From Ignavibacteria bacterium (GTDB lineage: Bacteria; Bacteroidota; Ignavibacteria; Kapaibacteriales; Kapaibacteriaceae), in contig JACPPD010000003.1 in assembly GCA_016191145.1 (NCBI GenBank), positions 416,778 through 480,777 on the forward strand: a stretch of DNA of 64,000 bases, read 5' to 3'. Each line of letters starts with the position of its first letter. The first letter of the stretch is position 1. The notes beneath the pieces were generated by a model. The model was given only the letters and a program-made list of their open reading frames with translations, was not told where the DNA came from and searched no databases. Both the position numbers and the translations under genes were made by a program. Positions 3,966-4,334 of this stretch are shown here, piece after piece.

Positions 3966-3970
3966 TTCAG

Positions 3971-4334
3971 TGGAGATGCCGGGAGTCGAACCCGGGTCCG
4001 AAGCGGAGTCACCGAAGCATGCCACGTGTGTCGCCGATCTATCAAATTTCGCCGAAGGGGTTACCGACCGATAGGTGCCCTTTGGCTAGCAGCAGTGTCT
4101 TCTCGCGTTACGCCCTGATGCGCGGCATCACGCCAGTCTGTCAAGGGTGCGTCACCGAAACGGAGGATGACAGACACTCATCCGCCCGATGGCATGGGAG
4201 TCTAAGTTAGACTGCCATGCGATAACCGAAGTTATCGCCTGTTGTGTTTCGCCGGTTGTATTAACGAGCTCCACCAGCGTAGCTCGACACGCATCTTCGA
4301 GATCTTCTCGCCCCGTCGAGACCGTTACATCCCC
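3971..4334 (-). ncRNA. ssrA: Transfer-messenger RNA (tmRNA)
   Basis: Rescues stalled ribosomes with SmpB and tags the nascent peptide. The 5' end (GGGGATGTAACGGTCTCGAC) pairs with the 3' end (CATCTCC) as a seven-pair acceptor stem. The T-arm reads GACCCGGGTTCGACTCCCGG. The discriminator A is at 3971 and CCA is not encoded, so it must be added afterwards. Helix 5 is clear at 4192-4220, with the tag stop codon (TAA, 4207-4209) in its loop. Reading back from that stop gives the tag GDNFGYRMAV (4207-4239), resuming at GGC. It aligns position by position with the Chlorobium-type tag ADDYSYAMAA. A UUCG-loop hairpin (4219-4238) overlaps the tag frame. Confidence 0.93.

Follow-up and report, generated by a model that had tools for sequence, protein, structure and literature searches.

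The resume codon of tmRNA lies in a stretch that drawings often show as single-stranded, and the hairpin proposed there has had little comparative support. This hairpin, helix m, lies over the resume codon; the part of Burks et al. 2005 (PMC1168896) devoted to it places it at residues 87-98 in Escherichia coli by energy prediction only, notes that footprinting suggested a slightly different E. coli helix, and gives the Bacillus anthracis counterpart three base pairs. The same part suggests that helix m may be unwound by S1, which would expose the resume codon. More generally, an excerpt of PMC8363625 describes the mRNA-like domain as already folded ahead of accommodation and puts forward H5 as a fulcrum about which it might unfold.

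The window analyzed here, by which we mean the whole stretch of 64,000 nucleotides (G000:C15:416778-480777), contains a one-piece tmRNA gene (ssrA) on the minus strand at 3968-4334. In a covariance model search, this gene was matched by RF00023 over the full length of the model (1-374) with a score of 140.1 bits (E 7.8e-55, gathering score 47), and it is the one tmRNA above the family cut-off in G000, the genome of the window. Its acceptor ends are GGGGAUG and CAUCUCC-A, and CCA is not encoded. The resume codon of the model (GCA) aligns over GGC (Gly) at 4239-4237, after pseudoknot 1, and the frame that starts there reads GGC GAU AAC UUC GGU UAU CGC AUG GCA GUC UAA (4239-4207, minus strand), i.e. 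GDNFGYRMAV followed by a stop codon (UAA, 4209-4207) that sits in the loop of helix 5. The covariance alignment thus bears out the frame that the initial annotation had read from the letters, and the same frame is kept in 20 of 20 tmRNAs of the family. ARAGORN also detects the gene; the 33-residue tag that it reads in another frame was ruled out by the covariance alignment and by the frame kept in relatives. Elsewhere in the window, at 949-1080, there are imperfect tandem repeats with units around TGCCGGGGAACATGC and periods of 29 and 41.

Relatives were sampled at three levels. The 23 genomes of the family gave 20 tmRNAs (three genomes yielded no full match), 105 of the 123 genomes of the order (Kapabacteria) gave 106, and 100 tmRNAs were fetched from the same class outside the order, of which 96 were oriented and read for end counts. 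Tag ends were called as an antepenultimate Leu, Met, or (Phe), followed by Ala or Val twice, any other end being scored as a tmRNA without a tag. No such case was left in the order and family set, nor among the 96 tmRNAs outside the order once a GTA start was allowed. Compared with RF00023 tmRNAs carrying a proteolysis tag, the locus shares the full-length match, the tRNA-like ends, the resume codon, the stop in helix 5, and a genome that encodes SmpB (TIGR00086, 175.1 bits; SmpB is present in 21 of the 23 family genomes). It differs in that its tag ends in Ala-Val, whereas 103 of the 106 tags in the order and all 96 outside it end in Ala-Ala. The locus is an intact, ordinary tmRNA, the ribosome-rescue RNA of a Kapabacteria genome. 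By the standard mechanism, it would be charged with alanine, bind SmpB, and add A-GDNFGYRMAV to stalled chains.

The tag frame is covered by a hairpin, GCGAUAAC-UUCG-GUUAUCGC, at 4219-4238 on the minus strand. The stem (4238-4231 with 4226-4219) is exact over eight pairs, as the initial annotation had proposed, and closes a UUCG loop. Its predicted stability is −10.0 kcal/mol (z −5.9), which none of 200 shuffles equaled. Only two of the 1536 synonymous codings of GDNFGYR are this stable, and these two differ in the Phe codon of the loop, so that the fold is the most stable available to the peptide and lies beyond chance expectation. Helix 5, as folded locally, spans 4220-4192, and bases 4220-4219 are able to pair in either helix, which agrees with the two shared bases of the initial annotation. 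When the region was folded together with helix 5, without the tetraloop bonus, the inner six pairs of the hairpin had probabilities of 0.98-0.99 and the outer two of ∼0.67. It is reasonable to expect that the predicted hairpin would have to be opened by the ribosome. Its predicted fold and its position put it in the mRNA-like domain, where it lies across the resume codon. Like helix m, it is local and lies ahead of helix 5; however, helix m is weakly supported or energy-predicted in the relevant part of PMC1168896, whereas the predicted hairpin of the window has eight pairs and a UUCG loop and reaches from the second base of the resume codon to helix 5. The predicted hairpin is best understood as a counterpart of helix m that is strong and fixed. 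A literature search, with subscription papers and the sequences of the tmRNA Website outside its scope, found no work joining tmRNA and Kapabacteria and, among the titles listed, none dealing with the tag or its hairpin in this group.

All 20 family tmRNAs have the hairpin core. The stem codons GAU, AAC, UAU, and CGC are invariant and GGU varies once, whereas the loop Phe codon is split 18:2, the resume codon is GGC in 14 members and GCA (Ala) in six, and each of the two Ala codons in helix 5 occurs in two to three forms. As a yardstick we used ClpX from 19 family genomes, in which none of the 141 residue-invariant columns (13 amino acids counted) keeps a single codon. Constraint on the tag bases in the family is shown by these sequence comparisons; pairing may be its cause within the family. 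The codons may instead have been fixed in the family ancestor for other reasons, such as nucleotide contacts of the mRNA-like domain or translation of the tag, and be self-complementary by chance, the hairpin then being a by-product. We give this a little better than one chance in three. Several findings are in keeping with it: no compensatory pair change was found in the hairpin core among the 20 family tmRNAs; the six members with a GCA first codon tolerate a bulge that weakens the hairpin to −6.2 kcal/mol; and one member (G008) has a broken loop-closing pair (−6.3 kcal/mol). Furthermore, family f7 (10 tmRNAs) keeps its first tag codons almost unchanged although no hairpin forms there, and codon conservation alone therefore does not prove structure. 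On the other hand, chance self-complementarity sits poorly with a coding that none of the 1536 possible for this peptide exceeds in stability, with a loop codon that varies while the stem codons hardly do, and with the differently built tag hairpins of other lineages, one of which covaries.

Hairpins of −5 kcal/mol or below in the tag frame were predicted for 42 of the 106 tmRNAs of the order, 20 of them from the family of the window. Outside that family, tag hairpins were found in f2 (6/6), f3 (1/1), f4g10 (1/1), f9g49 (3/3), and some members of f6 and f9g47, each with another sequence or another register. Since most other lineages of the order have none, such a hairpin is not generally required. 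In the class outside the order, four of 96 tmRNAs reached −5 kcal/mol, two of them from f13, a count made without the tetraloop bonus and with some tag starts placed too far upstream. In f13, a family of another order of the same class, a tag hairpin is found in five of five tmRNAs, where one genus has GCGAACUC....GAGU-A-UCGC and two other genera have GCGGACUC....GAGU-A-CCGU, and its Tyr codon is UAU or UAC, following the pairing partner. When the five distinct sequences of f13 and f9g49 were aligned, all 40 cells were paired and three of the eight pairs had changed on both sides; this covariation score was reached by three of 500 shuffles, and every slid version scored far lower. These rows were picked because they fold alike, and their stem differs from that of the window's family. 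Excluded from the alignment was the f3 tag (G029); its codons are similar but pair in another register, and it would break two of the f13/f9g49 pairs. We advance only tentatively, as a possibility with somewhat under one chance in three, that selection has given several Kapabacteria lineages and a neighboring order a hairpin, built from different sequences, that would lock the resume codon and tag frame and be opened only on translocation; RNA pairing, and not the protease, would then set the tag codons and even the Arg residue.

Two further kinds of tag were seen in the course of these comparisons. In five tmRNAs of the class outside the order (L250, L262, L270, L273, and L276), the frame leading to the helix 5 stop starts with Val (GUA), and GUA and the Tyr codon form the stem of a hairpin, CGUAG(N7)CUACG; in two of the five, the covariance alignment does not clearly place the resume codon at GUA. 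Two tmRNAs, L097 and L109 (from G106 and G107), have a 19-residue tag, ANNTPVYAMNSVPVYSLAA, which looks like the product of an internal duplication and forms a long hairpin.

The initial annotation had singled out the end of the tag, Met-Ala-Val preceded by Arg. This end is real in G000 and in its sister species G006, both of genus g1; the idea that the tag as a whole is unusual for its group found no support. All 20 family tags follow the pattern [G/A]DNF[G/A]YRMA[A/V], and YRMAA is the family form in 18 of the 20, including the four remaining members of the genus; Arg before Met or Leu near the tag end is found in 35 of the 106 tmRNAs of the order. The relatives thus share an ordinary Ala-Ala end at the same site, the outcome that the initial annotation had named as telling against it, although MAV itself stands in the two sister species. 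Across the order the ends are MAA (61), LAA (42), MAV (2), and LVA (1), i.e. 103 Ala-Ala, two Ala-Val, and one Val-Ala, whereas outside the order all 96 tags read end in LAA, MAA, or FAA and none in Ala-Val. The one LVA end belongs to a natural tag, AENEYALVA (L130 in G057), and is the same as that of an engineered variant. One genome (G041) has two tmRNA matches at contig ends (L041 and L120), with tags ADYNYAMAA vs. GEYNYALAA, perhaps through contamination.

The last tag codon, GUC (Val, 4210-4212 on the minus strand), is common to G000 and G006; the other 18 members of the family have GCC or GCU (Ala) there. In helix 5 (4192-4220, minus strand), the middle base of the codon, U4211, is paired with A4201, a position occupied by C-G in 18 of 18 other members and by U-A in the two sister species. 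Because the C-G to U-A change is compensated, the RNA stem has been kept while the residue changed, and because the derived GCN to GUC change has its match in helix 5, the Val codon is fixed and not an error. Relative to most relatives, Val does depend on a single base, as a sequencing or assembly error might produce; yet the genome of a second species agrees, 363 of 367 positions being identical between the two tmRNAs, and the base opposite in helix 5 is altered along with the codon, which makes such an error exceedingly improbable. Sequence comparison therefore shows the terminal Val to be a recent derived change from Ala, kept together with its helix 5 partner, and the MAV end looks like a minor recent variant.

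We also considered the proteases. ClpX was found in 22 of the 23 family genomes, the exception being G010 (89% complete). Its motifs GYVG, SITRDVSG, and RKH are identical in all 22 sequences, G000 and G006 included, while at 19 other alignment columns both of these differ from the 20 other sequences. We take Y153, V154, T199, V202, R228, and H230, the tag-contacting residues of ClpX, to lie in these three motifs. In the part of PMC7652416 that treats the E. coli enzyme, these residues contact the tag end, and replacement of the last Ala raises the KM of ClpXP with little effect on Vmax. In G000, ClpP adjoins ClpX, and ClpP and Lon were found in six of six genomes of the genus, whereas the ClpA model gave only matches under its cut-off; the MAA-tagged members of the genus have the same proteases. 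SspB (PF04386) was found in none of the 23 family genomes by a search that detected the E. coli positive control, and the tag would accordingly not be of the E. coli type delivered by an encoded SspB. We also looked for alterations of the ClpX pore that would suit a MAV end and found none at GYVG, SITRDVSG, or RKH.

The tags of G000 and G006 lack the C-terminal hydrophobic-Ala-Ala of a ClpXP-type degron and have Met-Ala-Val instead; that they may still work like one is suggested by the unchanged ClpX motifs. A parallel exists in the engineered ssrA variants LVA and AAV, in which the last or penultimate Ala is likewise changed; these are laboratory-made, whereas the tag here ends naturally in Val, following Met-Ala, and according to an excerpt of PMC9382460 an AAV end remains a ClpXP substrate that is degraded more slowly than LAA. 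With ClpX, ClpP, and Lon present, the ClpX motifs unchanged, and engineered AAV still degraded, a weaker but working ClpXP tag is expected. Most likely, MAV would only weaken ClpX binding somewhat, and ClpXP would remain the main protease. The initial annotation had supposed that the altered end may change which protease is used; with ClpX motifs, ClpP, Lon, and SspB distributed as above, this idea found no support. A fuller version of it would have the MAV end redirect tagged proteins to Lon or a ClpA/ClpC-like unfoldase, or stabilize the tag. Lon is indeed present, ClpA-model matches exist below the ClpA cut-off, and the last Ala is a ClpX contact whose change raises KM (same part of PMC7652416). 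Nevertheless, such redirection or stabilization is improbable, given that the pore motifs of G000 and G006 are unaltered, that MAA-tagged members of the genus carry the same proteases, and that the engineered AAV end stays a ClpXP substrate (PMC9382460, same excerpt).

Taken together, the explanation that we consider best overall, and somewhat more probable than an even chance, is that the locus is an intact tmRNA whose Val is derived and compensated in helix 5, with ClpXP still the main protease. The natural Ala-Val end offers a ready test of how far from Ala-Ala cells can go and yet clear tagged proteins. The hairpin is the more interesting part of the locus than the tag change: it adds comparative evidence for a part of tmRNA that is poorly documented, and its fixed, very stable form in the family, together with covarying pairs elsewhere, makes gating of the resume codon by this fold testable.
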